Source: Phorcus lineatus (Eukaryota > Mollusca > Gastropoda > Trochida > Trochidae). Taken from it: a DNA stretch of 64,000 nucleotides. This document shows, in pieces, positions 3,881 to 60,990 of the stretch. The notes under the pieces are model-generated. The model did not search any database. It was not told the DNA's origin and saw only the letters and a list, made by a program, of their open reading frames with translations. How positions within the stretch are numbered: the stretch's first letter is position 1; every line of letters begins with the position of its first letter. The position numbers and the translations under genes are program-made. Location of the stretch: the NCBI GenBank assembly GCA_921293015.1, contig OV121082.1, positions 50,612,971-50,676,970 of the forward strand. Direction: 5' to 3'.

Positions 3881-4363
3881 CAATCCTACCTTTGTCATTT
3901 GTTGGACTATTTATTTCAGTGTATTTGATAGTCAAGCAAAAATGTGATTTTGGAATATGTATTTATTTTTACAATGATGGCAATTTAATGTAACAATGTA
4001 TTTTTATCAGGAAATAACCCAAGTTTTATATTGAAATTCATACCAATTAGGTTAAACAAAAACTATTCAAATAACATAATTTAACTACTAGTATTTAAAA
4101 AAAATTTATTCCATTTTTTTTTCTTTGATAAGTTCTATAAAAAATCATATTAAACTACATAACAGTATATTAATCTTTCAAAATGAATGGTTTGATAAAT
4201 TGATAATGGCTTCACTTCATTAGCAAATGGTGAACAGAAGGGATTGCTTGCTTCGATAGTAAATAGTGGTCAGTAACATTAGGAGTTGTATACTGCATCA
4301 ACTGGACTGGAATTAATAAACTGTGAAGCATGGTTGTCTGACCACCAGCTTGTAGGTTATCTC

Positions 4364-4430
4364 ACCTGTCAGGTTCGTCACAGGTGTTTTCCACTCAGGT
4401 ATGGTGATCTCATCCTCGGAAACACACCTG
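4364..4430. promoter_or_regulatory. CAGGT/ACCTG (E2-box) cluster B
   Basis: Five CAGGT or ACCTG pentamers fall within 67 bp (4364, 4370, 4381, 4396, 4426). The first two form the palindrome ACCTGTCAGGT. Such E2-boxes are bound by Snail/ZEB-type zinc-finger repressors and some bHLH factors in animals; binding here is inference. Confidence 0.35.
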
Positions 4431-5108
4431 TGCACAATATGCACTGTACTAATTACCCTATCCATTAAATCTGTGAAAATCGTTACAAGATTGCACAATG
4501 TTTACTTGTTTATCAGTTTGATCTTCACTAAACTGTAATCAGAAAGCAAACTGTTAAATTCAATTCAATGTGTTCTAAGCTAAATTGCTATTATGACTCA
4601 AATCAACATTAGTAAACTGTGACCAGAATGTGCACAGAGATAATTTGTTTGTGGTTTTCAGTCACAGTATTTTCAAAACTGTGATCAACTAATTTAAACT
4701 GTGAATTGACAATAAAGGAATGAAAATGTTTACCACAGGTGTCAAATATGTGAAAAACCATGACATTAATGTGGTGCTTTCTTCACTTCTTTGGCATAAT
4801 AATTCTTCACATATACTTATGATATTAATTTTTGTTTCTGAAATTACAGAATTGTAGGACTATTTATTCAGAAAAGTCTTGAAAGCTAACCTATTCATTC
4901 ATTTCAAGCATCTGATACATTTGAAATATGTTATTTCTTATTTATTATTTGTAAACATTGGTTCATATTTATCATCTGTTACTGATATATTCTTGTATAT
5001 GCTCTTTCATTCCTGAAATATTTTTTCATGAAGACAAAGCACACAAGTTATTTCCATTCATATGAAAAACCACTTCCTCAAAGGTCAGGAAATTGTGCAA
5101 ATTGTTAC

Positions 5109-5225
5109 ACCTGGATATTACCTTGAGATTTCACCTGTGTGTTACCTGCTTCTGGCCAGGTAATTAGCCCAGGTGATCCAGGTAGAGTAGGTCAGCGTCA
5201 GTAGCGTGTGTGTGTTTATTACCTG
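5109..5225. promoter_or_regulatory. CAGGT/ACCTG (E2-box) cluster C, the densest
   Basis: Seven motifs lie in 117 bp: ACCTG at 5109, 5133, 5144 and 5221, and CAGGT at 5157, 5170 and 5179. By chance one would expect roughly one per 500-900 bp at this base composition. Orientation changes once, from ACCTG to CAGGT, in the middle of the cluster. Confidence 0.35.
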
Positions 5226-6958
5226 CCTGGTTGGGTGCAAGTCGAGTCGGGGCATGTGCTATGATTTATACTGCACAGCAAATACTAGCTCAACTACACT
5301 GTTACAAATAGTAGTACCTTTACACAAAGCTACATAGTGTGTTACAGTTTATACTGCAGTACAGATATAATACTTTATTAAACATTTATTCACAGTGTTG
5401 AAGCATGTTATAAGTTATACTGCACTACTACTGTTCCACTGCTGTGGCATATGTTACAGTTGACACTGCACAAAGACTCATTTCAGCAACTAGTGTTGCA
5501 CTAGGTACCCTTGTTGTAGCCTTAATAATAGTAGAAGAAAAAGTATTGATTTGTAATGGTTTTCTGTGTATTGCATTACCGAAATTTATTCATATACAAC
5601 CAGCTAGGACGTGTGTGCTTAGCTGTTGATAAGCTTAGCATAAAACGAAAGATAGAATTGCAAATTTGAATTAGATCTGCATTATGTACAATAAATGGTA
5701 ATCATAAACATGGTTCCCATACTAAAACACTTTAGATGGGAATCCACTAGAATGAATTTTAGTCAATATGAAAGCTAAAAATTCTGAAGAAGTTAATCAT
5801 AAAAAGGTAAGAATGAATTGCAGTCAAAATCAAAGCTAAATAAATCTAAGTAAGTAATCATAAATTTAGTTTTCATGTTTTACAAATTTGTTTTATTCTA
5901 TTGAAATTTCAAAATAGTCATTTCTTTTGGGCAAGGTTTACAAAATTGAAATGTTTATGAACACTTACAAATATCAATTCAGGAGAAAAAGAACCAACAT
6001 GAATAACCCCGTAACTATAAATCAAATTAATATCTCTCTTCTCTTTTTAAGGAAAAGAACTTTTAGTGATAATAATAATTATTCTCAGCTGGAGTTGAAA
6101 AATGACAATCATGGAAGAAATTATATCCTATCATTTGAAATCAGAATTTTTGAATGCCTTGCAGGGGAGCAAACTGCATGATAACAACGCAATCTCACGA
6201 TATGGCGGGCCCCAGATAGCTGCTCAAGTTTTGCTCGTTCCGTCGCTAAAGTCACCAAGAACTTGGCAAGGACATTTGGCATGTGACGCTTAGATCAAAT
6301 GGCTCACCTCAGAGATTTTGTGTGTTTGTTGATATCCTGAAAAAATGTTTAAAGGAGGTTTATGTATGGACAGGAAATTTCATATTTGATCAAAGAAGTT
6401 GGAAGTAGATATTTTTGTATGAATAGATCCTTTATGATCTAGAGCAGTAGAGTTGGCAGGAGCGAGTAAATGAGTATAAAGGCTCACAGCGTGTATTGAT
6501 TCAGGATTTGCTGGCTTGTGTCACTTTGTCTAGACTTTGCAATAAACTTTTGTCACATTCTCTCAGACTTACCAACATTGCTGCAGTTTAGCACTCTATA
6601 TTCATGTTTTTTTAAGAGTTTTTTTTACATTTTCTGCTCTGTAAATAATTGTTTTTACTAAAATCCTAAATGTTTCTAACTATCTAAACCGTCCAGCTGC
6701 CAAGGGCCTAATAATTGTCACCAAAATACATGAATACTTAAGTGGAAAAAAGCATTTCGTAGATTGATTTGAAGTTCTAATGCATTAATGTTTTCTCTGT
6801 CAAAGATATGAGTTTACAAGTAACGATGTATTTGTTGTGAGAATCAGCATCCGTTGATGTCCTTAATTAATTGCAGTTTCCAGTTGCCCTTTTTAGAAAT
6901 GACCATTAGCTAAGCTAGCAGTACCCTTATTGTTGTATGTTTGCTGTATCTTTGTGGA

Positions 6959-10400: not shown

Positions 10401-12385
10401 ACTCTTTGGAACTATTTAAAGTTTTGATTATGTTGCTAAATGAATAAGCCATAGAACCTGAGAAGTTTGAACTTAGCTTTAATTTATGGAGAAATTCATT
10501 AAGAAAATGAAAATAAAAACTTTATTGCTCTTGAATACGTGAGGCAAAATTCTCTATAAATACTAAATATTTTTAAAAAATAGATTCAGTAAAAGACTCA
10601 AATAATGAATTTAATGAAGAGAAATAAGGATAACTTATTATAGAAAACCTGTGAGTCACATCTGTAGGCTGATTAGTATGATCAGCATTTGAATTGTGAA
10701 TATATCTGCATTTATATTGATTTTTGTAGATGAATAATATATCTCAGAAAAAAATTCTAATGTACATTAATAGGGCTTATTTCACCAATTGCATGCATTA
10801 ATTTTGTCTAAAAGGTTTTTCTTTTATCAAAAAATAATCCATGAAAAGATGAATCTGTTGATTTTCAATGTTTTTATGATATAGGTATGAATAAGTAAAA
10901 GTATATTGATCATATATACGTTTCAAGGTTCAGTTGTTTTGAGAAAAAGCCTTCATTGATTTTTTTGGTCTCCTGAGATAAGGTTTGGTTTGAAGGCAAC
11001 TCAAGAACCGACAAGAGACTGTTGTCTATTGATTCGTAAGTATATGTTCATTGGCTTAGGATTCAGAAGTATTTTGAAGTTTGTCTAAACGTGGACAAAA
11101 AACAACACGAAACAAACATGTCAATAAAGTTCAGAACTTGGAAACTGATTGTTAACAGTCGCGTCATTGTGTAAACGTTCGAGGTTGTCTAGAATTGAAG
11201 AAACTCAATAGCTGATTGCTGAATAACAGATATGTCGTCATAGTGTCCGTAAGCGAAGCCAAGGCACAAACTATTAAACACTAATGCCTAGCAAGCTATG
11301 TCACAAACTATTAAACATATACGCACGCCAGCATAGAAATGCCTGAAGCTAGAATTGTGATTATTATGCACTGTTGTTGGGACAGAGCCAAGAGGCACAC
11401 TCCTGTATAACAGGAAGACTTGTTTGGTGAACTTCATGAGCTTTAAATTGAAAGAGATTTTTGCATTGGTTGATAGTTCTTTAGTGTTTTGATTTGAAAG
11501 AGGAAGTTTGATATTAGTTATGGGTACTAGTACATTTTGATTTTTCCTAGATTTTTATTGTATTTTTCCTGATCGTAACTTCATTAGCCAGAACTTGAAT
11601 TTGAATTATATGTATTGGTTGCTATTCAATTGAAGGACATTTATATTCAGCATAATTGAAGGCGTGTGTGCGGGCGTACACCGTTCTGAATTTGAATAAG
11701 AATACCTCTGAAGTCCATATAGGTAAACCTATATCTTAAGCTTGAAGGGTTGTTTGTGTTTACTGTAGTCAACTGTGCAACCTGCCTGCTTCACAGTGTC
11801 AAAGACAACATGCTCAATAGGTAATACTTTGTTGGAAACCATGTTTTGGTTTAAACTCAATTTAAAATCTTCATGTTTGACATTTTCGAAAACTAAGTCC
11901 CAAGTTGACACCCCTTAAAATTGAAAAAAAGATCTGAAAACCTTGAATGAAGTCTAGATTGTTAATCATTTAATTTTGGCTATCAAAATACACATTGAAA
12001 GCCAAATAATGCCCCACAAATTATAACTGAAGACATTATGAAATTAATAATTACACTGAGACTCAATTTCACTCTGAGAATTTAATAATGAAAGACAAAT
12101 TGTGTGTCTCCAGACAAAAGCTTGAACTGCACATTGACATAATGAAGGCACGTGCTGGGCATCATGACACCGATAATGCGCACACCTTGACACACCTGAG
12201 TATAAACTCGTTAGAGACTTCTATTCATCACAGTGATGCAGCAGCTTCTTTTGTGACGGCTAATTTGCATATTGATGCACGATTGGCTCTGACAAGATGC
12301 TTAATATTTTCAAGTGCCGCCTCAATGGTCACCCCGAGGTCATGTGACATGCATGAGCGCACTTGAAAGCGACGGGACTATTTTT

Positions 12386-16800: not shown

Positions 16801-19800
16801 TATTTCAGGCTGTTGTTAAGATCTTTGTGATTTATTGTGTTTTCAATGCTGGGATAGGTGAATAAGTTCATAAAAGGTTCCGGATATGCTTTTACTGAAT
16901 TTTGAGTAACAAAAGGTCTTTGATAAAACAGATTATTCTGTCACGATCAAATTATTTCAAAATAGTAAAGTGTGTTGATAAGACAAATTAAAATGTCACG
17001 ATCAAATTAGTTTAAGATCCATAATTTCCTTTGTCTCAAAAAGCTTGCCAATTGGTAAGATAATAGCCTGTTTCAACCTGATGAATATTTAATGCCTGCC
17101 AGGTAAGATGATAGCTAATGAAGACAGGTAAGGCAGTTTACCTGAGCAGGTGTGATGCTACAAGGGTTATAGATAAGAAGAAGCTGTAAGGGAAATAAGA
17201 TAAAAAAACAGTTGTTAAGGGAATAGCATGTGGAATAAAGCACTTAAAGAGCAGTGTCGTATCATCAAACAGTGTTAATGTTGCGTTAAGAAAGTTATGA
17301 ATACTTTATAAGCTTCACTATGATGATAGGTCCCAAACCTTATCACGAAGGTACTTGTTATTGATTCTAAACTGTACAATAATATTGCATCGCTTGACAG
17401 TTACTATTATAAATCTTTCCTTGATTGCCATGAATAATTGATTAATTAGAAGAAATGTGAAAATGTAATCTTAATTGTTATGCGCTATTGTACACTTGAA
17501 TACACACTCATGATATTGTCTTAAAAATCTCGTTCATAGCTCCTTCTCCAATGGTCTGAGCAATCAAAAAAGTATTAATGTCTTTTGATGTTATCAAGCA
17601 TTAATAAATCATTAAAGTAAGTATTGAATGTTGAATCAAGTTCACCAAAATTTCGAAGGTCATAGTTCAAACATAAATAAACAAAAATGGGAGAGAACCT
17701 GTTGAGACAGGTGAAGTTAGTTAAAGCAACCCACGCCAGCGTTGACCTTCAATTCAAGAAACAAAAAGGGTTTATGATAGAGAAAACAGATGGTGATTGC
17801 TCAAGCTATAATGTCAACGTGAACTTGGAACAAACAAGACTGTCTATTTATTTTGCGGACAAGCTGTGTCTGTCCTGTGATGATATGACGTAAAGAAATC
17901 GTCAATGAGTGGCACTGATCCTTTTCACCACCAGATGGCGTGCGTAACTCGTCCACGATGTTTTCACCTGCTGCTGATTCCATATGGAGGCTGTCATTGT
18001 CTGTCGATATCCCACAGGGAGGCTGTTACTGGCCGGGACATAACGATACATAATGACCACTGATGTACCCTAACCTGCACACATACTGATAGTGTGCCTT
18101 TAACTCTACACTTAATGCCAGATTAAGGGTTCTCTACTCATCACTGTGGGAGGAGACAGAGTACTTGTTTAAGTCGCATAAAGACTCGATAGACTTTTAA
18201 TGACAGGGCAGCCTAGAATTGACCAGTGGGTATTTATGTTTAACTAGCTTGTTTGAAGAAAGAGGGAGGTACTAAATGGATGTAGAAAGTAGGAGTTTAT
18301 GTGTAACAACTGGGTGGTCACCTCTTTAATCAAGGAATTAATTAATCACCGTTGACTTGGTGTTCAGTGACTTGACTTAAACTATGTAGCTCCATTCAGG
18401 TGAACCAGTATACATGGTATTGTTTGTTTGCTAATCAAAAGCTTTGTTCGGAGTAAAGGTCTGGGAAATATTGAGTTTTCCATTGAGAAGTTTTGTAGTT
18501 ATAAACCAGCTGGAACTTGAGAACTACCCTTGGGATCTGTGTATAATTACTTATTCATGATTGCAGCAAAAATGCTTGGTTATTCCAGCATAATTAATCT
18601 AAACGGTTAGATTGAATTTTCATTGATTTTGTAATTATTCAAACATAATTAAAAGATGAAAATATACCGGACAAAACTTATAAGGGATATGTGAAGATTC
18701 TGAAATTATCAGTACTGACTTATTATTACATTGGTCATGTTTTGAAATCTTGATCAAATAATGGATGATTTCCCCAAATAATTTTGTCCAATATATGAAT
18801 ACTTGCCAAAATTATGAATACAATATTGTCAATACCTGTTAAACTGGTTCAACACATTGAAATAATTCACAGATGTTAATGATGTTAAAAGGATATTTTG
18901 ACACAACCTGTCAAGCAGGTATCAGTGGAAATGAATTAAAGAGAAAATTTGAATATAGCTTGTGGGTGCATGTGTCAACATGGACATAAAGTTTGAACTT
19001 AACATGAACTTAAGACTTACATGTCGGACAAGTTAAAGAAACACATTTTGAGTACATCAGACCAAATATAAACTCTGCCTCCTTATGTATATACTTGTAT
19101 TTCAGTTTTGAACCAAGGCAAACATTTACATTTAGGTGTGTCTGTTTTGTGGCAGCCTCAAAAAATAAATTTCAAAAGGGCGCCCAAATGAATTTTGATT
19201 TTCTGAAACATCCTTTATCGTAGGGTAATTGTTTACGGGCTTACAAAATTTCTAAACTTGAGTAGACCATTTTGCATTTTCCTGAAATGTTAGTTTTTTG
19301 GCAGTTCGTTAGATGAAAGCCAATAACAAAAATAGAAAGCTCAATGTAATTATGTAATAAACGAGATCTCAAGGTGAATAATTTAGAATTTTTAAAAAAT
19401 CTTTAAACAAAAATCTAAACTTGTTAATCCATAGACTGATGTTAAAGAAGCTAATGGCAACAGATCTGTCCTTCCTCCTATCAATCATGAGGGCACCTCA
19501 ATCTGGTTTTATTGGGTTGAACTCACTCCCTCTGACTCCAGAAGCTGTGGACTGGTTGTTAGGTGTCTCTCTACCTGTGTAACGTAATTAGAGAACAACT
19601 AAATGCCTCTCTAGCTTAAGTGGTTTCACCTCATTGCTCAGTGACCAGAGAAACCTTGGACGGATTGTCAGCTGTCTTGTCAACCTGTGGACCTATATAA
19701 ACTAACATTTATGATTGAAGGACAACTTCTCTGCCTCTCTAGCTTAAGTGGTTTCACCTCATTTTTTTGGTGACCAGAGAAACCTTGGACGGATTGTCAG

Positions 19801-22800
19801 CTGTCTTGTCAACCTGTGGACCTATATGAACTAACATTTATGATTGAAGGACAACTTCCCTGCCTCTCAATCAGCTGAAGCAGTTGCACCTCATTGTTCT
19901 GTAAGCAGAGATACTGTGGACGGGTTGTCAGCTGTCTCTCTACCTGTGAACCTATACTAACATTTATGATTGGAGAACAACTTCTCTGTCTCTCAATCAG
20001 CTGAAGTAGTTGCACATCATTGTTCTGTAAGCAGAGATACTGTGGACGGGTTGTCGGCTGTCTCTCTACCTGTGAACCTATACCAACATTTATTATTGGA
20101 GAACAACTTCTATGCCTCTCAATCAGCTGAAGTAGTTGCACCTCATTCATCTCTGAGTTGCAAAGTCCCGGACAGGTTGTTAGCACATGCTTTATCTGTC
20201 CGTCTGTCGGCCATCTTGCAGGACATCGAGTGACCATCACTCTATACACACCTGTCCCTTTGTTCACAAGTCGTCAGGGATCAAACACAGGTTAAACAAT
20301 GGGTGTTTCTACCTGGATACAATAAACTTGATACATTTTAGCGGTTCCATTTTCCCTTTGTTATATTTTCCTATTAAAAGTGTTTTAAATGAAAAAAATT
20401 GAGAGATGGAATACTGATAGTCAATAGTTTTTGTAAACCTTTATTTTTTTATTAAGAAGTTATTTCTTGTAATGTTAAAAAATATCATATTTCATTAAAA
20501 CATGTTCTAACAGATTCATCCTTCATGATAATTCTTTAGTCATTTTGAATCAAGGCTGATCTTTTGAAACAGATTTAGACAAGTTTGATTGTTAATCCAC
20601 AAAGTGAAAATCATACATCAGTCCTTTTAATCATGGGATCAACTTTCAGTACGAATTCAGACATGTTCAGATGTAACAAGGCAGCCTGAGTTCTTAATGG
20701 ATACAGGGCATGTGTGATTGTCATTTACATTCTCATCTTTCCCCACATATTCAGACATGCCTCAATTACCAATTCATGCAAAGTCAAGTCCATCATTCCA
20801 CTCCCTGAGAATCTGACATGGGACTTCCTTGACCTGAATAGTGTCACCAAACTCCCTCCGTGGAAGAAGACGTTCCACTTGGCTTGCCATGATAGCGTGG
20901 CATGGTTTATGGTCCTCTATGTTTTGTCTCGGGTTTGACCGTCGCATGTTTTAGGGTCATCCTACTAGCAAGTCTAGCATCCAGCCCTGGTCACAATGGA
21001 CACAGCTGTCCAGGCAAATTACCTGAGCGTGCTCGAATCTGATTAATTAAGGAACCTGGACGCTAATTTACCCTGGTAAATCTGCCAGGTAGCTTTTAAC
21101 AGATGCCACGCGACTTCCCTTTGTCTTGGCATTGATTCTTATTTTTTTTGGCATGGATTTCACGGATGTTGATTTTTACGACGTCCACTTCCTGATGTAT
21201 AGATATGTGGGTCAACGATTGGTCGAAAACGCCCTTGTCCTGTAGAACAGGTTGTTTCGTACCTACACACAATACTACAGGTAGTAACAACAAAGGCAGG
21301 TTTACCTGTCCGACTCGTTATTGCCTTTATTATCTCATTGACCCTTTGTGTCAAACCAGGCTATTGTTGAGTGGAGCAATCATGGCACCTTAATACTCAA
21401 TTAGGGCTCTGACATCTTGACAGCTTTTCCTACATGAGTGGGGGAATATAATGAAGGGATTACACACACAAGATTTATGATGATTATATTTTCACATATT
21501 CAGGCATAAGTCACATTTGGCAAATTTTCAAGATTTTTACAACATTTGTAATGATTTTTTAATTTGATGTTTATTTTCCCCAACCTTGAAGACCAAGTTA
21601 CTACAGTTTTATGTAATTTAAGTACTTTAACTTTTAAATTTATTTTAAAAAATATATTATTTTCTCCATTATATGCATTGAAATGCACACAGGTCATTTG
21701 GGAGTTGAAATAATAATTATGTTCAAGTCAAACAGAAAATATTTTCTGTTGAACTTAGGATTACCTGAAGGAGGGATAATAGCAAAAGTCTCATTATTTG
21801 TTGACTGAACACATGCCAAAAGATTTTGATAAGTATAAACAGAAAGTGTTAGTTCTGATCTGAGAAAGCATTGAAACCACACGTATGGCGGCCATTCGAA
21901 TAATGTTTTCCATAGAAGCCATCGTATTGGATCTGAATTCTACTTGTTGACTCACGGCTTTCTCAGCGTGTATTGAAAAGATTTCTCGACATTGTAATAC
22001 AACTCTGAATTGCTTTCTGTGTTGGACACAGTAGCCATTAGATTGACCATGCTGACCAAACAAGCACCTGTTAATTACAATAACCCCAGGCAGTGGTTTT
22101 GAATTACAGTTATCTCCCCTTGTTCCATTGTGTGCCTGTCTAAGGTGGGAAGAGCTTTCTTGAAGAAATCCACCTATTGTTGTCAACACGTGGCCTGGGG
22201 GGCACCTGTTACTGAAGGGGGAGAGGGAGGGGGTATTGTTATCTTCGAAAATTAAATTGAAGGTTTCCTGGAAATTGTAATTAATTACAGCACATGACAT
22301 TAATGGCATCATGACCTGAGGATACTGACAGTTAATATTAAAAATGCATGAACCGTGACACTAAATGGATTCGGATCAAGTTGGGAATCTGCTATGATTG
22401 TGAGGTCAAATTGTAATTATCCTCCCAAATTAGTTATTAGTTTGCAGGTAAATAATTCATGGAAATCTGTTTTGGCTTTATCCAGGTGAAAGTAAATTCA
22501 TGTTGTCCTGGCATACTGGGTTAATTTTTGCCATTGATATGTTTACGATGAATTGATATTAATCAACCTAAAATAAGAGGTTTCATTGTTGATAGATGCA
22601 TTCAAGCATGGATGACAATCATTTCAAGCGTGACCTGATAACATTTATCCATTTACATTTATGTTGCTGCATGTAAATTTAGCGTGAACTTGAAATATTT
22701 GAAGCATGACCAACAACAAGTTTACGCCTCCATGTTGAGGTGAGTGGAAGTCTTACATCACCCAATGTACAGGATGAAAGCTGTTACAAATGGCTGCCTA

Positions 22801-53088: not shown

Positions 53089-56000
53089 GTGAAGTTCAAG
53101 TCTGGAGATAGATCTCAATCATTATTATACATAAAGAAGGGGAGAAATCTGTCATCAACAAAACAGAGAAGAGATGTGTTGTTAAATGAACAGATCAGAA
53201 GAGTACTGTTGCATAGCTTCTCAGGCAACCATTTTTTAAACCAAGCTCTTGTATTTTTGAGGAAATTTCCATGATTGATTTATTCTCTTCCTATTAATAT
53301 TAAGCTTTTGTATACCATGTAGCTGCCTCAATATGTGTATTGAGAGTCATGTGTGAGTATAGTGATAAATTGCGCTTGTTCCTGTCATATGCAACTAATA
53401 TCAATTATTAGCTGTAAGATTATTAAAATGTGATTATTTAGAGACTTCATCATTTTTGTAATATTTCCAATGATGACTTTCCTTTTTATGTCCTCATAAC
53501 CCTTGTAATGATAAAATAATATTTCTCAAGGACAAACTGAATTTTGATTAAATTTCATCGAACAATGTCATCAAACTTTACCGTTATTGACCGTTCCAGG
53601 AACCCTGAGGATGAAATGAGAGTGTTGTTCGTGTCGGATCCACAGATTATCGGATACCAGGATGAATCCACCTTTCCCATTGGAACTATCACCAGATGGG
53701 ACTCGGACACGTAAGTCATTACATCTTATAAATAAATCAGTTGTCAAAAATTTTGAATTTTCTACAGCACTTACCTAGAAAAAACATTAAGACATGTAAG
53801 TTTTTTTCGCAATGGAAAATAATTGTGTAGCATCATCGGATGGACATATTGAGATTATTTCAAACTGATAACTTGTGTCTCTTTATATTTGTTGCCAAAA
53901 TGGGAAAAGGGTTCCTATTCCATTTTACCTGTGTGGCTCTGTATTTAGATATCTAATCTTCTTTAGATGTATGATATTGAAAATGCTCATATATCTCATA
54001 TTCAGATGAACAAATATAAACTTTTTTCTTTTAGCTTTTTAAAACGGACATTCTCACTGGCATATAGTTATGTGGAGCCAGATGTGATAGTGTTTCTAGG
54101 AGACCTGATGGATGAGGGCAGTAAAGCCACATTCAAAGAGTACGAGTTGTACATGGACAGATTGGAGAATATCCTCTATCCAGCCAGAAACACTAAGGTA
54201 AAAAAATCTAATATGATTATGGACTGTTCATGAAGACAATAAGTGTTTTCCTTTGGTCAAAATATAACAGATATCTACTGATTTCACCAGTACTTAACTT
54301 TTTGTATATGTCTTGAATAAAAGCAAAAAGGAAAACAAAAACCTTCAGTCATGAAGGGTACGTTGATCTGATTGTTCAAGATGACATGCAAAAGTCGTCA
54401 TGATAACAGAAGCATGACATCATGAAATAATGATATGACGTTATCAAGTCTATTTTTAGTAACTCAAGTCAATTACGCTTTTGATCGGTCTTGATGAAGT
54501 CAAATGCTTTTCTGTTGACTGTCCCATGATCAGCTCTCAACCAATCGGATAGCCAGATATGCATGCATAATGACTTTTTTAAAGCTGATGATGATCACAT
54601 TGTTTTATTCATACGCAAGTCATTTGACATTTTATGTGAATAGGGCAAACTGACCGAGGTTCGGACACCACCCGAGGTCGCCCGAACTTCGGACACTTTT
54701 GACTATTAGCTGACGCAATAATACGTGCAATGTCGGCAATAAATTTGTTTTGAAATACGAATTTCTCGAATGTCAATTTGTTAATTTCATTAAATAGACA
54801 ATTGCTCGAAGGTAGTATATCTAATCGACTTTTTGCTAAAATGTACAAATGATAGATCCATGTAAGGAATTGACAAAATATTTGTTTCAACGTAAATGTT
54901 GACTATCAGATTAGGAAATATAGGAAGCGCCAAAACATTTAAAACTGTATCCATAAACAAAGATAAACAACCAAATAGCTATATTTTGCCGAACATTGGT
55001 ATATATAAAGGGGATTTTAAAGTACATTTTGAGATATTGAAAATATGTCAAAATGACCTTGCTTCGGACAGTTTTGACCATGGTTCGGACACTTTTTATA
55101 TTTCACTTGAACGGACTTGTAGTGCTGTAATTCAACCAACAAAAGTTCTGGAAACATACAATAACATACGACTAACATATTTCACTAAGTGATACATTTT
55201 TAAAAGCTACGGTTTAGCGAGTACGGCGTTTTAGCGGCAAATGCCTATGAAACTGATTGTGACGTCATAATTGTGTAACGACGCATGCAGCAGTTTTGGG
55301 AGAATTTAACGTCGGAAAGCATGCTCTGTACAGATGACAAATTAATTCATTTGGACACTTTTTATATTTCACTTGAACGGACTTGTAGTGCTGTAATTCA
55401 ACCAACAAAAGTTCTGGAAACATACAATAACATACGACTAACATATTTCACTAAGTGATACATTTTTAAAAGCTACGGTTTAGCGAGTACGGCGTTTTAG
55501 CGGCAAATGCCTATGAAACTGATTGTGACGTCATAATTGTGTAACGACGCATGCAGCAGTTTTGGGAGAATTTAACGTCGGAAAGCATGCTCTGTACAGA
55601 TGACAAATTAATTCATGTTTCCGAAAAAACTTGATATTGTTGTACATGAACTACCCAATGCGTGTTTTGGAATGTCTGAGACCATTTTGATAAATATTTT
55701 AAGCTAGGGGGTCATGCGAGAAGATCATGTGCAACTGTCCGAAGTTAGGTCAGAACTGTCCGAACCTCGGGCGATTTCATATTCGCAATAAAAACCGTTA
55801 TTTTCGGATAATTTACGAACAATTCTGCATTTTAAGATAGAAATCCAAAATAGATATTACTTTTTGATAATTTGGTTTGCTCATATTTACATTATTCAAA
55901 TTATCGTTTATAATGCAGAGTTTCAAAACATTTGATTCGATACACCGTCCGAACCTCGGTCGGTTTGCCCTATTGTATGCCGCTTTATGACAAGAAATCC

Positions 56001-59000
56001 TAATTGGTAAGGTAAGTTAAAGTATAAGTGCCCATGTTGCAGTGTGTGTTAGCTCGTTGGTTTCATCACATTGTCAAGACATAATTTTTCTTTATGATTA
56101 TTATCATAAGATAAGAATATACTTTAGGTTTAGGTAGGATTAAAAAATATATCAAATGGGAGAAAGTGACATTGTCGTCGATTTTATGTTATGTCTAATA
56201 TAGATTGACCCTTTTGTCTACATCTTATGACAGCATCTTTTAATAGAGAAAGTTGTTTTATTATCAGAATCATTTAAAATGTTTATTTTTATGTTTCCTG
56301 TTTTAGAAATAGTGTATGAGATTGTTGCATGTGAGTGATTGTTTGTCACGATGTATTGTCTCTTCCAGAAAGTCTTCTTACCAGGGGACAATGATATTGG
56401 TGGTGAAGGACGCGATTTCAGAACGCCATTTAAGATGAATCGATTTGAACAGCATTTTGAAAATATTACTGGTGTGGAAAGGGAAGGTTTCATAGATTTT
56501 ATCAAGGTAAGAGACATTGTACTCATTGAAGAATCCAAAATATATATCCAGCACCTAATCTCATATTGGAGTTATAACTGCTGGAGACAGTGGACTTTGG
56601 CAAGGTTAAAAATTGAACTTTTGAAAAATAGATATGTCACAAGAATGTGTAGTTATGCTCATCTACGACTCCATAACCCTAAGGATCTTGTTTAATGTCT
56701 AAAGGCAGTAAAATCATTTTGCAACACTATGATAAATACTTATGACTTTTTAATAACTACATTATTTGGGTTTGTTTCTAAGTTATATGAAGTTCAGTGA
56801 ATATTAGCTTAATCTTGCAGGTATGCATTTTCATTTAATAAACATTCACTCAATTTTGTTTAAACCTTTGTTATGAAAGATGGATCTGAGACTTCACCGA
56901 GATTTACCCATTGATCATCACAAAGTGATACAAGAACTGAAGAGAGACTTCACTGCTCCACTCCGCGTTATTGTCAACCATGAAACCATGCTGCCTAAAC
57001 TGAAAACTTTCATCTACCCTGTGAGTGTGTTTCTTTCAAAACTTTCATCTACCCTGTGAGTGTGTTTCTTTCAAAACTTTCATCTACCCTGTGAGTGTGT
57101 TTCTTTCAAAACTTTTATCTACCCTGTGAGTGTGTTTCTTTCAAAACTTTCATCTACCCTGTGAGTGTGTTTCTTTCAAAACTTTCATCTACCCTGTGAG
57201 TGTGTTTCTTTCAAAACTTTCATCTACCCTGTGAGTGTGTTTCTTTCAAAACTTTCATCTACCCTGTGAGTGTGTTTCTTTCAAAACTTTTATCTACCCT
57301 GTGAGTGTGTTTCTTTCAAAACTTTTATCTACCCTGTGAGTGTGTTTCTTTCAAAACTTTCATCTACCCTGTGAGTGTGTTTCTTTCAAAACTTTTATCT
57401 ACCCTGTGAGTGTGTTTCTTTCAAAACTTTCATCTACCCTGTGAGTGTGTTTCTTTCAAAACTTTTATCTACCCTGTGAGTGTGTTTCTTTCAAAACTTT
57501 TATCTACCCTGTGAGTGTGTTTCTTTCAAAACTTTCATCTACCCTGTGAGTGTGTTTCTTTCAAAACTTTCATCTACCCTGTGAGTGTGTTTCTTTCAAA
57601 ACTTTCATCTACCCTGTGAGTGTGTTTCTTTCAAAACTTTCATCTACCCTGTGAGTGTGTTTCTTTCAAAACTTTCATCTACCCTGTGAGTGTGTTTCTT
57701 TCAAAACTTTTATCTACCCTGTGAGTGTGTTTCTTTCAAAACTTTCATCTACCCTGTGAGTGTGTTTCTTTCAAAACTTTTATCTACCCTGTGAGTGTGT
57801 TTCTTTCAAAACTTTCATCTACCCTGTGAGTGTGTTTCTTTCAAAACTTTTATCTACCCTGTGAGTGTGTTTCTTTCAAAACTTTTATCTACCCTGTGAG
57901 TGTGTTTCTTTCAAAACTTTCATCTACCCTGTGAGTGTGTTTCTTTCAAAACTTTCATCTACCCTGTGAGTGTGTTTCTTTCAAAACTTTCATCTACCCT
58001 GTGAGTGTGTTTCTTTCAAAACTTTTATCTACCCTGTGAGTGTGTTTCTTTCAAAACTTTCATCTACCCTGTGAGTGTGTTTCTTTCAAAACTTTCATCT
58101 ACCCTGTGAGTGTGTTTCTTTCAAAACTTTTATCTACCCTGTGAGTGTGTTTCTTTCAAAACTTTCATCTACCCTGTGAGTGTGTTTCTTTCAAAACTTT
58201 CATCTACCCTGTGAGTGTGTTTCTTACAAAACTTTCATCTACCCTTTGGGTGTAACTGACAAAACATAAATCTGTCCTGTGATTGTTCCCTTTAGTGAGG
58301 AATTTAAAAAATTATATCAATAAATATTTAAGTGCCCTAACAAGTATGATATTGGTTTTATTATTCAATTATTTGAGTGATATTGTGCTCCGTGCCATTT
58401 CGGTTAAACTAGTAAGCACATAGTTCTACAATGTGTTCATCTTCAGATCCTGATGGAGATTCAGCCCCACCTTCTAGTCTCTGGACACTGGCACGAGGCA
58501 AGTTAATGTTTTAAACTCATCTTCTATATTTTTAGTCTCACCAATGAAGATAAACAAACAATTGGGTTATATTCTGTCATAATTTTAATATCGGATAATA
58601 TTTAAGTAATTAAAATATTTCTGGCTACAAAAGTCAGTGTATGTCAGCTGTTTTCTCCTTTACCTGTTTTTCCTCATGGGAAGTGTGGGTGGGGGAATGT
58701 GGTGGCAGTGGTGTAGGTGGGTGGATGCTTACAGTGAATAACTTACAGTCTTACAGGGATAACTGAGATCGTCCATTGAATCCATTGAAAGATTCTGGTA
58801 TGGTTATTGACATGAGCATTAGTATTTAAAGATGAGGGACGTTTGAACCAACTAATACCGATTTTGAGGTTGATTTAATGTAGGGACACAAAAGAGCCCT
58901 TGAGTGTAACAATTGATAAATCATTTACCCTTGAGTATGTCTGTTGGTTGGTTGAACCCTAGCCTCATGTTCTCTTGCCACAGTCCCGTCACTTTGTGTG

Positions 59001-59874
59001 TGAAGACTGCCTGTCCGACAATGCCGATGTGAGTTTCTGGCCTGTTCACCAACGTGATCTGACAGATATCGACTCCTTCATTGACATTGACCTCAACAAG
59101 CACCTTGATGTGCACGAGCTTATGGTGCCCACGTGTAGTTACCGCATGGGCGAGGAAAATATGGGATATGGGGTCGCCATACTAGGTGGGTTTACTCTCA
59201 TTTGGATTAAGAAAGTTGAGTGTGCTGTGTATGTTGACACCTTACTTCTTTTCAATTGTGGCGGTCAAACCTGAAATTTGGAGATAACATCCAAAATTGA
59301 TTGGTTTTGAACTTCTATAACTTTTTCAAAAGACATTGTGGTCAAAGGGAAATAACTCTTGAAGCATGAAGGGTTTTGGAAGGTAAATTTTGGAGGGAAA
59401 AAATGAGTTATTAATTTGCACTGCTTACATTTTAGGTTTTGAAATTAGGTAGTTGGAATATTTATTTGAAAAAAAGAGGGAAGCATTTAAAATGATCTAA
59501 ATCAATTTGACTTTATACAACTTAAGAAAAGAATTTTTTTGGACAAGCAAATTATAACGATTCTACCTTAATGTAGCTCTAATAATACATCAGTTGCCTA
59601 TTATATGTCCGAACTTGTAATCATCATTACATCACTGGGCATTCTTTTTTTAAGATGTTGAACCAAAATAACCTATTCTGGCTGTTAACAAATGACTGTT
59701 TCAGACCCAGAAGGCCATCTCAAGTACACAGTGTTATGGCTACCTAACCGGTACACACAGCTCTACGCTTACATCATTGTACTTGTCATCGTCATCGTCC
59801 TCTTCGTCGCCTGCTTCCTCATACAGTGTTTACAGCAGCAGCGACAACCTCAACACTACCAATACTATAGGTAG
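52949..59874 (+). CDS. MPPE1/Cdc1/Ted1-like metallophosphoesterase (whole gene, 8 coding exons)
   Basis: Spliced CDS: 52949-53088, 53600-53710, 54035-54197, 56369-56506, 56880-57020, 58447-58497, 58984-59185, 59705-59874; 1116 nt, 371 aa (human MPPE1 is about 396). Transmembrane segments at about residues 13-30 and 335-355 flank a calcineurin-type phosphoesterase domain. Metal-site motifs in order: SDPQ (Asp60), FLGDLMDEG (Asp107), GDND at 144-147, NHE (His218), SGHWH (His245, His247). Family members (PGAP5/MPPE1, yeast Cdc1 and Ted1) remove ethanolamine-phosphate from GPI anchors in the ER, helping cargo exit; this role is inferred. The usual GNHD reads GDND here, so the Asn ligand and catalytic His are replaced. 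The start is the first ATG in the exon, followed directly by the signal-anchor. Confidence 0.85.
53600..53710 (+). CDS. MPPE1-like exon 2 (first metal motif)
   Basis: Acceptor TTCCAG, donor ACAC/GTAAGT. VLFVSDPQIIGYQDE holds Asp60. The D-x-Q form, instead of D-x-H, is the form used in yeast Cdc1/Ted1 relatives. Confidence 0.88.
54035..54197 (+). CDS. MPPE1-like exon 3 (GD motif)
   Basis: Acceptor TTTTAG, donor AAG/GTAAAA. PDVIVFLGDLMDEGS contains Asp107, the bridging metal ligand, in the family's FLGDxxDEG context. Confidence 0.9.
54643..55970. mobile_element. Non-autonomous DNA transposon, 1328 bp, 24-bp TIRs, TA target site
   Basis: The left end GGGCAAACTGACCGAGG and the reverse complement of the right end GGGCAAACCGACCGAGG continue into GTTCGGAC, giving 24-bp TIRs with one mismatch. 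TA flanks both sides (54641-54642 and 55971-55972). TTCGGACA-type motifs recur about eight times near both ends in inverted orientation. The two frames of 93-98 codons inside show no transposase motif. Confidence 0.8.
55087..55616. repeat. Perfect tandem duplication, 2 x 264 bp (period 266)
   Basis: 55087-55350 and 55353-55616 appear identical base for base. They lie inside the TIR element. Complete identity implies a very recent duplication, a polymorphic copy number, or an assembly artefact. Confidence 0.85.
56369..56506 (+). CDS. MPPE1-like exon 4 (GDND motif)
   Basis: Acceptor CTTCCAG, donor AAG/GTAAGA, phase 0. VFLPGDNDIGGEGRDF carries GDND (144-147) where the superfamily has GNHD. MNRFEQHFENITG follows as in family members (RFEKxF). 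Confidence 0.9.
56880..57020 (+). CDS. MPPE1-like exon 5 (NHE motif); 3' end seeds a minisatellite
   Basis: Acceptor ATGAAAG, which has a weak pyrimidine tract; donor CCT/GTGAGT at 57021. Residues 185-231 include RVIVNHETML with His218. The last 18 exonic bases and the donor are the first part of the 35-bp repeat that follows. Only this first donor keeps the reading frame with the next exon. Confidence 0.88.
57003..58245. repeat. 35-bp minisatellite, 35 units, each with a 5' splice site
   Basis: GTGAGTGTGT starts at 57021 and recurs every 35 bp up to 58211, which is exactly 35 copies. Each unit ends in CATCTACCCT or TATCTACCCT, so every border reads CCT/GTGAGT like the true donor. Apart from this single C/T difference (T in about 12 units) and one T-to-A in the last unit, copies are identical. 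The C/T pattern of units 9-17 repeats in 20-28, pointing to an 11-unit block duplication. Confidence 0.95.
58246..58446 (+). other. Remainder of the MPPE1-like intron after the minisatellite
   Basis: About 200 bp of AT-rich intron ending in the acceptor ATCTTCAG. Nothing else was seen. Confidence 0.7.
58447..58497 (+). CDS. MPPE1-like exon 6 (51 nt, GHWH motif), followed by a GC donor
   Basis: Acceptor CTTCAG. It encodes 17 residues, ILMEIQPHLLVSGHWHE, with metal ligands His245 and His247. The only in-frame donor is GAG/GCAAGT at 58498, a GC-AG intron whose donor otherwise matches consensus. Phase 0 at both ends. Confidence 0.87.
58498..58983 (+). other. GC-AG intron
   Basis: Begins GCAAGT and ends TTGCCACAG. 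Splicing with GC joins Glu248 to Ser249 in phase, and no nearby GT gives an in-frame product. It has a G-rich stretch at about 58676-58725. Confidence 0.8.
58984..59185 (+). CDS. MPPE1-like exon 7
   Basis: Acceptor GCCACAG, donor CTAG/GTGGGT, phase 1. Residues 249-315: RHFVCEDC, an acidic insert, then VPTCSYRMGEENMGYGVAIL, which corresponds to the conserved VPSxSWR...MG segment at the end of the phosphoesterase domain. Confidence 0.9.
59705..59874 (+). CDS. MPPE1-like terminal exon 8 (second TM segment)
   Basis: Acceptor TTTCAG; stop TAG at 59872-59874. Residues 316-371: YTVLWLPNRY, a strongly hydrophobic helix (335-355), then a Gln-rich cytosolic tail QQQRQPQHYQYYR. The tail codons and the stop are the first unit of the minisatellite that follows, so tail length could vary by repeat slippage. 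Confidence 0.9.
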
Positions 59875-60990
59875 CAGCAGCGACAACCTCAACACTACCA
59901 ATACTGTAGGAAGCACTTGTAAGCGAATATCAAAACACTACCGATACTATAGGTAGCAGCAGCGACAACCTCAACACTACCAATACTGTAGGAAGCACTT
60001 GTAAGCGAATATCAAAACACTACCGATACTATAGGTAGCAGCAGCGACAACCTCAACACTACCAATACTGTAGGTAGCACCAGCGACAATCAAACACTAC
60101 CCATACTGCAGGTAGCAGTAGCGACAACTTCAACACTACCGACACTGTAGGTAGCGCAAGCGTCAACACTACCAATACTGTAGGTAGCAGCAGCGACAAC
60201 CTCAACACTACAAATACTGTAGGAAGCACTTGTAAGCGAATATCAAAACACTACCGATACTATAGGTAGCAGCAGCGACAACCTCAACACTACCAATACT
60301 GTAGGTAGCACCAGCGACAATCAAACACTACCCATACTGCAGGTAGCAGTAGCGACAACTTCAACACTACCGACACTGTAGGTAGCGCAAGCGTCAACAC
60401 TACCAATACTGTAGGTAGCAGAAGCATCAACCTCAACACTACCGATTCTGTAGGTAGCAGCAGCAACAACAACCTCAACACTACTGATACTGTAGATAGC
60501 AGCAGTGACAACCTCAACACTTCTGATTCTGTAGGTAGCAGAAGCATCAACCTCAACACTACCGATTCTAGTAGCAGTGTGATGACTTTATGATGTGTGA
60601 CATGAGCAAACATGAGCAATATAATGTGTAAAGAAGGTTGAGGAGGGACATTGCTTTATCTTGAGTGACATTGTACTACCAGGTAGCGCAAGCATCAACA
60701 CTACCGATACTGTTGGTAGCAGTAGAATCAACCTCAACACTACCGATACTGTAGGTAGAAACAGTGACAACCTCAACACTACTGATATTGTAGGTAGAAA
60801 CAGTGACAACCTCAACACTACTGATATTGTAGGTAGAAACAGTGACAACCTCAACACTACTGATATTGTATGAAGCTCAAGCATCAACACTACCGATACT
60901 GTAGGTAGCACCAGCGACAACCTCAACACTACCGATACTGTAGGTAGCACCAGCGACAGCCTCAACACTACCGATACTGTATGACATTGT
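59836..60990. repeat. 39-bp-type minisatellite beginning in the last codons of the MPPE1-like gene
   Basis: Units built on GTAGGTAGCAGCAGCGACAA, CCTCAACACTACC and (A/G)ATACT are mostly 39 bp, with 30-bp and longer variants. A compound block repeats with 231-bp period (GTAGCACCAG at 60074 and 60305). A unique stretch at about 60570-60680 splits two repeat blocks. The second block is open on the + strand with a 13-residue periodicity, NLNTTDIVGRNSD. Confidence 0.9.

Follow-up and report, generated by a model that had tools for sequence, protein, structure and literature searches.

Background

The closest described counterparts of the locus analysed here are found in human genes. In CBS, a 31-bp VNTR (c.1444_1467+7), described with 16–21 copies, lies across the border between exon 13 and intron 13 (PMC2630376, PMC1395315), and its units are reported to be constant in length and to differ from each other by single-base variants (PMC2630376). 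As read from the notation, the CBS unit comprises 24 exonic and 7 intronic bases, and each copy should carry a donor. In F7, the first of a series of highly homologous 37-bp repeats is described as containing the natural donor of intron 7, with the rest of them located downstream (PMC6627357). The 38-bp VNTR in intron 6 of hTERT is an example of an intronic minisatellite for which copy number is reported to affect splicing, through RNA pairing (PMC3948165). Tandem duplication of coding sequence has also been described as a source of new introns, for example in the potato RdRp gene (PMC4974935).

How the splicing machinery chooses between nearby copies of a donor depends, according to published minigene work, on the way the exon is recognized. 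Identical strong donors placed 52 nt apart between flanking introns of 365 nt led to exclusive use of the upstream donor in all constructs described, whereas severe weakening of both donors led to skipping of larger exons, with smaller ones keeping the upstream donor (PMC9225289). In the same account, intron definition gives way to exon definition near 250 nt in human systems, the downstream of two donors winning under intron definition and the upstream one under exon definition, and the combination of a long upstream intron with a short downstream intron favours the downstream donor, similar to the classical intron-proximity rule (PMC9225289). In F7, the most upstream of the repeat donors is described as the only one used in the normal condition, while mutation of the natural donor results in exon skipping and in use of downstream cryptic donors (PMC6627357).

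In this article, we analyse a 35-bp minisatellite in intron 5 of a gene located in a 64,000-nt stretch of the genome of the gastropod Phorcus lineatus, referred to below as the window. The repeat unit spans the border of exon 5 and intron 5, the authentic exon end comes first (as judged from homology and reading frame), and the donors downstream of it are intact. The array is of the same architecture as the repeats in human CBS and F7 and represents a known kind of repeat in extreme form, not a new mechanism. As in CBS, the unit covers the last exonic and the first intronic bases, although the unit and the gene are unrelated to those of CBS and the CBS copies are fewer (16–21 compared to 35); moreover, the CBS repeat is reported to be polymorphic in length and to be associated with enzyme activity, whereas the snail array comes from one haplotype, an alternate haplotype having also been published (GCA_921293055.1; PMC10444997). 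The title of an article by Lievers et al. (2001) reportedly claims an association of the CBS VNTR with reduced CBS activity. The likeness to F7 consists of a nearly equal unit length (37 and 35 bp) and of a natural donor in the first copy with the others downstream in the intron. The F7 intron 7 repeats are few and variable in number, compared to 35 in the snail, and donor choice in F7 has been studied (the source cited for the use of the repeat donors is said to be Borensztajn et al. 2006). The hTERT VNTR is likewise an intronic minisatellite of similar unit size, but it is located more than 1 kb from the exon borders and acts by RNA pairing, for which the snail array gives no signal. The array shares with the potato RdRp type a tandem duplication that includes splice-site sequence and differs from it in that the snail intron appears to predate the array, with no sign of a new intron. 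Human precedents therefore exist for the architecture and partly for the idea of copy number acting as a rheostat; the new elements are the animal, the host gene, the large number of copies and how little the units differ. A literature search by titles and abstract openings recognized no donor-spanning array in a non-human animal, and such an array may still be in print.

The host gene

The gene was modelled with eight exons, ordinary splice signals (including one GC donor), a continuous reading frame and a product of 371 residues (Table 1). The introns are 511, 324, 2171, 373, 1426, 486 and 519 nt long in the order of the gene, and all seven exceed 250 nt. Intron 6, which begins at 58498 with GAG/GCAAGT (here and below, a slash marks the exon/intron border), is the GC-AG intron.

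Table 1. Features of the host gene and its repeats (positions in the window; all on the + strand)
Feature	Position	Strand	Description and basis
Exon 1 (coding), first hydrophobic segment	52949..53088	+	Splice signals, frame, protein homology
Exon 2	53600..53710	+	Gene model, homology
Exon 3 (FLGDLMDEG)	54035..54197	+	Gene model, homology
Exon 4 (PGDNDIGGEG)	56369..56506	+	Gene model, homology
Exon 5, ends ..KTFIYP	56880..57020	+	141 nt, phase 0 to 0; frame, homology
Minisatellite	57003..58227	+	35 full 35-bp units, 35 donors CCT/GTGAGT; repeat detection, unit counts, shuffles
Donor 1 (GTGAGT), productive donor of intron 5	57021..57026	+	Frame and homology
TGA	57057..57059	+	Met past donor 2 (donors 3–35) and by intron retention
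Donor 35, last intact donor	58211..58216	+	236 nt from exon 6
Partial 36th unit	58228..58245	+	18-bp exonic remnant, donor destroyed (CCCT/TTGGGT)
Exon 6 (ILMEIQPHLLVSGHWHE), HWH motif	58447..58497	+	Gene model, homology; GC-AG intron next
Exon 7	58984..59185	+	Gene model, homology
Exon 8, coding part, second hydrophobic segment	59705..59874	+	Stop TAG 59872-59874; gene model, homology
Second minisatellite, same gene	59834..60981	+	39-bp unit; 72% matches, more diverged than the exon 5 array

The protein contains a Metallophos domain (PF00149; E-value 1.9e-08, 35.4 bits compared to a cut-off of 21.5), and the residues D60, G106-D107, G144-E151, H218 and H245-H247, which include the H-W-H of exon 6 and which we take to be metal-site residues, are invariant across 16 aligned sequences. 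The closest of the 120 relatives listed among 305 found are two Haliotis proteins, P0001 and P0002, with 73% and 71% identity; the names given to these two are 'uncharacterized protein' and 'metallophosphoesterase 1 homolog', and several of the listed matches are named metallophosphoesterase 1. The domain, the conserved metal-site residues and the overall similarity characterize the product as MPPE1/PGAP5-like, the enzyme being a predicted one. None of the 120 listed relatives is a near-identical sequence that could represent the species' own transcript. When the protein was compared with the genome, the best candidates scored gave seven matches at E ≤ 0.001 and all seven lie inside the locus; the host of the array is apparently a single-copy MPPE1/PGAP5-like metallophosphoesterase gene. 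The same result ruled out a paralogue as a comparison for the ancestral state.

A minisatellite across the border of exon 5 and intron 5

The unit of the array has the 35-bp consensus AAAACTTTCATCTACCCTGTGAGTGTGTTTCTTTC, which consists of 18 exonic bases, namely the last 18 nt of exon 5, followed by 17 bases from the start of intron 5. The nine nucleotides of the donor are identical in all 35 full units: the donor of the first unit is kept intact in 34 out of 34 further full units and lost in the partial 36th, where the remnant is followed by TTGGGTGT and no donor is present. A preliminary description of this DNA had proposed that the minisatellite was seeded across an exon/intron border and that every border offers an equally good donor; the analysis supports the first point and, as to the second, finds the identical 9-nt donor in every full copy. 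It had also counted exactly 35 repeats, which is correct as a number of full units but not as a statement about exact copies, as 22 of the 35 are identical to the consensus. A change of C to T at unit position 9 is found in 12 units and a change of T to A at position 34 in a single unit, the last one. The variation is thus confined to 2 of the 35 unit positions, with a mean pairwise difference of 1.5% per site and 98% matches in the array.

Allowing up to three mismatches, the unit is matched 35 times in the window, compared to no match in any of 100 dinucleotide-preserving shuffles. Of the 36 occurrences of CCTGTGAGT in the window, 35 are in register within the array and one lies far outside it, at 10648. 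A search of the whole genome for the exact 21-mer ACTTTCATCTACCCTGTGAGT, taken from the border sequence, listed at least 23 occurrences, all 23 of them inside the array; this pattern misses the 12 units of the T type and repeat counts may be lower bounds. The window does not contain any N. From the conservation of the exonic part in relatives, we infer that the array grew by head-to-tail duplication of the end of exon 5 together with the start of intron 5. The succession of C and T units gave no sign of higher-order duplication: the longest repeated block spans 9 units, which was matched by 7423 of 20,000 shuffles.

The authentic junction of intron 5

Comparison with relatives points to donor 1 as the ancestral junction. 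The residues FIYP or FIHP of the two Haliotis proteins run straight into ILMEVQPHLL, and the junction of exons 5 and 6 is contiguous in 113 of the 120 listed relatives (of 305 found). The seven non-contiguous cases comprise insertions in P0009 and P0015, a 4-residue gap in P0051 and four further proteins that are not itemised here. P0009, an unnamed protein, has an insertion of 36 residues net near the junction, while P0015, isoform X2 from Pomacea, has an 18-residue insert at the junction that begins with VR. This start fits a GTNNGN donor at the same place, and the insert therefore looks like donor read-through; the predicted Pomacea isoform seems to read through the same donor, and leakage past the exon 5 donor seems to have a precedent in another snail. 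Because P0015 and P0009 carry inserts at the same junction, intron 5 is probably older than the array.

Products of the 35 donors

The outcome of splicing at each donor can be read from the gene model. Donor 1 leaves phase 0, and the relatives join the protein exactly there. Donor 2 adds 35 nt, shifts the frame and leads into a TGA at bases 5–7 of exon 6, and reading further, as with donors 3–35 or with intron retention, meets the TGA at 57057–57059 (Table 1). Because of these early stops, no product of donors 2–35 or of intron retention would retain either the HWH motif or the second hydrophobic segment. The preliminary description had made each of these claims, namely that donor 1 alone keeps the frame, that donor 2 shifts the frame into a stop just inside the next exon, that a TGA at 57057 awaits longer readings and that all alternatives lose the motif and the second helix, and all of them stand. 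The premature stops are located more than 200 nt upstream of at least the junction of exons 7 and 8. A premature stop well upstream of an exon junction triggers NMD, and by this established rule the products of donors 2–35 are expected to be degraded.

A further outcome, which is absent from the list in the preliminary description, is skipping of exon 5. As the exon is 141 nt long and runs from phase 0 to phase 0, skipping would keep the frame and remove 47 residues including H218. Acceptors within the array were also considered. The single AG of the unit sits inside GTGAGT, after a pyrimidine-rich stretch; the pyrimidine content at positions −20 to −4 relative to this AG is 76%, equal to the best of the seven real acceptors of the gene (53–76%). 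Microexons of 31 nt could in principle arise from such acceptors but are unlikely because GAG acceptors are weak.

Strength and accessibility of the donors

The donor 9-mers are identical, and upstream of them donors 1 and 2 share 18 bases before diverging. With a hand-entered donor matrix, the array donor scores 7.52, fifth among the seven donors of the gene (range 6.06–10.36), and its predicted pairing with U1 (−8.1 kcal/mol) ranks fourth of the seven. Folding of the first 7 units gave a structure weaker than that of shuffled sequences (z = +1.76; equalled or exceeded in stability by 197 of 200 shuffles), and the predicted openness of 5 of the 35 array donors (0.37–0.49) lies within the range of the six other donors of the gene (0.12–0.54). 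Thus there is no sign, in the first 7 units folded and the 5 of 35 donors assessed for openness, of an RNA structure that hides the donors. The middling scores, the weak fold of the first 7 units and the ordinary openness together present the array as 35 mid-strength donors that are predicted to be exposed.

Splicing of intron 5 and alternative explanations

Our preferred reading, to which we assign a probability of about 0.7, is that the array is a tolerated minisatellite passenger, with donor 1 dominant and at most a small nonproductive leak that favours the last donors. A 35-bp segment over the border of exon 5 and intron 5 would have duplicated head to tail until it reached 35 copies. Exon 5, which has an intron of 373 nt before it and one of 1426 nt after it, would be defined across the exon by the spliceosome, and its acceptor would pair with the nearest donor, so that donor 1 is used nearly always and the other 34 are passed over as intron. 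This dominance is deduced from the published minigenes with identical strong donors and from human F7, together with the observation that all introns of the gene are longer than 250 nt. Use of donors 2–35 would lead to the premature stops found above and presumably to NMD. The likeliest leak would involve the last donors instead of donor 2 and would not be spread evenly over the array: donor 35 lies a mere 236 nt before exon 6, at the edge of the short-downstream-intron class, and may be open to intron definition. Otherwise the array would be a passenger, tolerated and probably variable in length. Use of the donors can be distinguished by sequence tags, with CTAAACTGAAAACTTTCATCTACCCTATCCTGATGG marking the donor 1 junction and TTTCTTTCAAAACTTTYATCTACCCTATCCTGATGG the junction of any of donors 2–35.

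Several observations count against dominance of donor 1. The rules of splice-site choice were worked out in human cells and may not carry over to a snail. The skipping of larger exons when identical donors are weakened, the intron-proximity rule and the Pomacea isoform P0015 can be read in the same direction. So can the human CBS 844ins68 allele, where the duplicated junction of intron 7 and exon 8 is described as spliced at the more distal copy, although the passage speaks of a donor while the work cited there concerns 3' sites (PMC2630376).

The main alternative is the one favoured in the preliminary description, in which the extra donors act as a U1 decoy and compete for U1 and for the acceptor, more copies resulting in less productive MPPE1-like mRNA. 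The presence of 35 identical donors, of which all but one are nonproductive, is what such a rheostat would consist of, and the sites look exposed in the predicted RNA, the first 7 units being less structured than shuffles (z = +1.76). There are also partial human parallels: reports link the similarly built CBS VNTR to reduced activity (PMC1395315, PMC2630376) and the 38-bp repeats in intron 6 of hTERT to copy-number-dependent splicing (PMC3948165). However, the published behaviour of identical tandem donors under exon definition points to near-exclusive use of the first donor, as seen in the F7 repeats (PMC6627357) and in the minigenes with identical strong donors (PMC9225289). With 2 variable positions out of 35, the units give no power to show constraint on the donor copies, and on balance we consider a rheostat unlikely. 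More speculative, and to our judgement a little less likely again, is an array that buffers itself and tunes the gene. The 34 added units would have stretched intron 5 from about 236 to 1426 nt and thereby from intron to exon definition; alleles with few copies would splice badly and alleles with many copies well, selection would favour expansion past the threshold, and donor use would show two modes, at donor 1 and at the last few donors, with the size of the leak set by copy number.

The remaining explanations appear much less probable. That the true array has far fewer copies and was enlarged in assembly is very unlikely: tandem arrays are well known for assembly errors and the array is taken from a single assembly, but two unit types are interspersed irregularly, unlike in a simple misassembly, and an array of 1.25 kb is well inside the HiFi read length. 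The published assembly is described as built with hifiasm from 32-fold PacBio HiFi reads, with a QV of 56.5 (PMC10444997). The U1 sites of the array could alternatively bring a mild benefit through telescripting, the suppression of a premature poly(A) signal downstream. Bound U1 is known to suppress premature poly(A) signals, and one AATAAA is indeed found in intron 5 just past the array, at 58319; this signal is unremarkable in an AT-rich 64-kb window with 69 AATAAA and 55 ATTAAA on the + strand, and we regard the explanation as slightly less credible than an assembly error. We give the least credence to an action of the hTERT kind, in which the repeat RNA, by pairing elsewhere on the pre-mRNA, shifts exon choice. 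Such an action is published for an intronic repeat of similar unit length (PMC3948165), but no signal was found when two units were paired with the pre-mRNA of the gene, the best duplex (−40.4 kcal/mol) falling inside the range of five shuffled queries (−35.8 to −44.1 kcal/mol).

The array by itself is no demonstration of a new regulatory device. Its interest is that 35 identical donors in one intron, with only the first one productive, amount to a natural multi-copy version of the duplicated-donor experiment, which can test in a mollusc whether the choice of the 5' splice site follows the rule of the nearest site across the exon or across the intron. The human CBS and F7 repeats and the snail array together suggest that, where minisatellites abound, donor-spanning ones arise repeatedly and are tolerated, and that genes in the vicinity of such arrays should be annotated with care.

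Minisatellites elsewhere in the gene and the genome

Tandem arrays were surveyed in 20 stretches of 10 kb (200 kb in total) spaced over the first 48 Mb of two chromosomes. The sample contains 46 arrays with a period of at least 10, of which 7 have at least 5 copies and 4 at least 10. One of these four (L019, positions 4162–5240) is a 49-bp minisatellite of 22 copies with 13 donor-like sites on the minus strand that score at least as high as the donor of the exon 5 array, which means that donor-bearing arrays occur elsewhere in the genome; three or more such sites on one strand were found in 2 of the 46 arrays. A rough extrapolation yields about 19,000 long arrays and 252–504 border-spanning seeds under random placement, assuming 20,000–40,000 genes, 7 introns and 45-bp seeds, resting on 4 arrays and ignoring selection. 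With long arrays this common in the genome, a border-spanning array is expected somewhere.

The host gene itself contains a second minisatellite (Table 1). The segment 59834–59871 closes the coding sequence (..QQQRQPQHYQYYR) and makes up 38 bases of the first 39-bp unit; the last base of that unit is where the stop codon starts, and the array beyond the first unit is presumed 3' UTR. The second minisatellite repeats the logic of the exon 5 array in that function resides in the first copy, all later copies being noncoding.

Other repeats were noted in passing. Intron 3 carries an insertion at 54639–55974 that resembles a nonautonomous DNA transposon, with 28-bp terminal inverted repeats that are 96% complementary, and inside it a 266-bp tandem duplication (55087–55616) whose copies match 100%. 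At 19613–20147, there is a 126-bp tandem repeat of 4.2 copies, part of which is covered by a 152-codon mechanical open frame of the minus strand.
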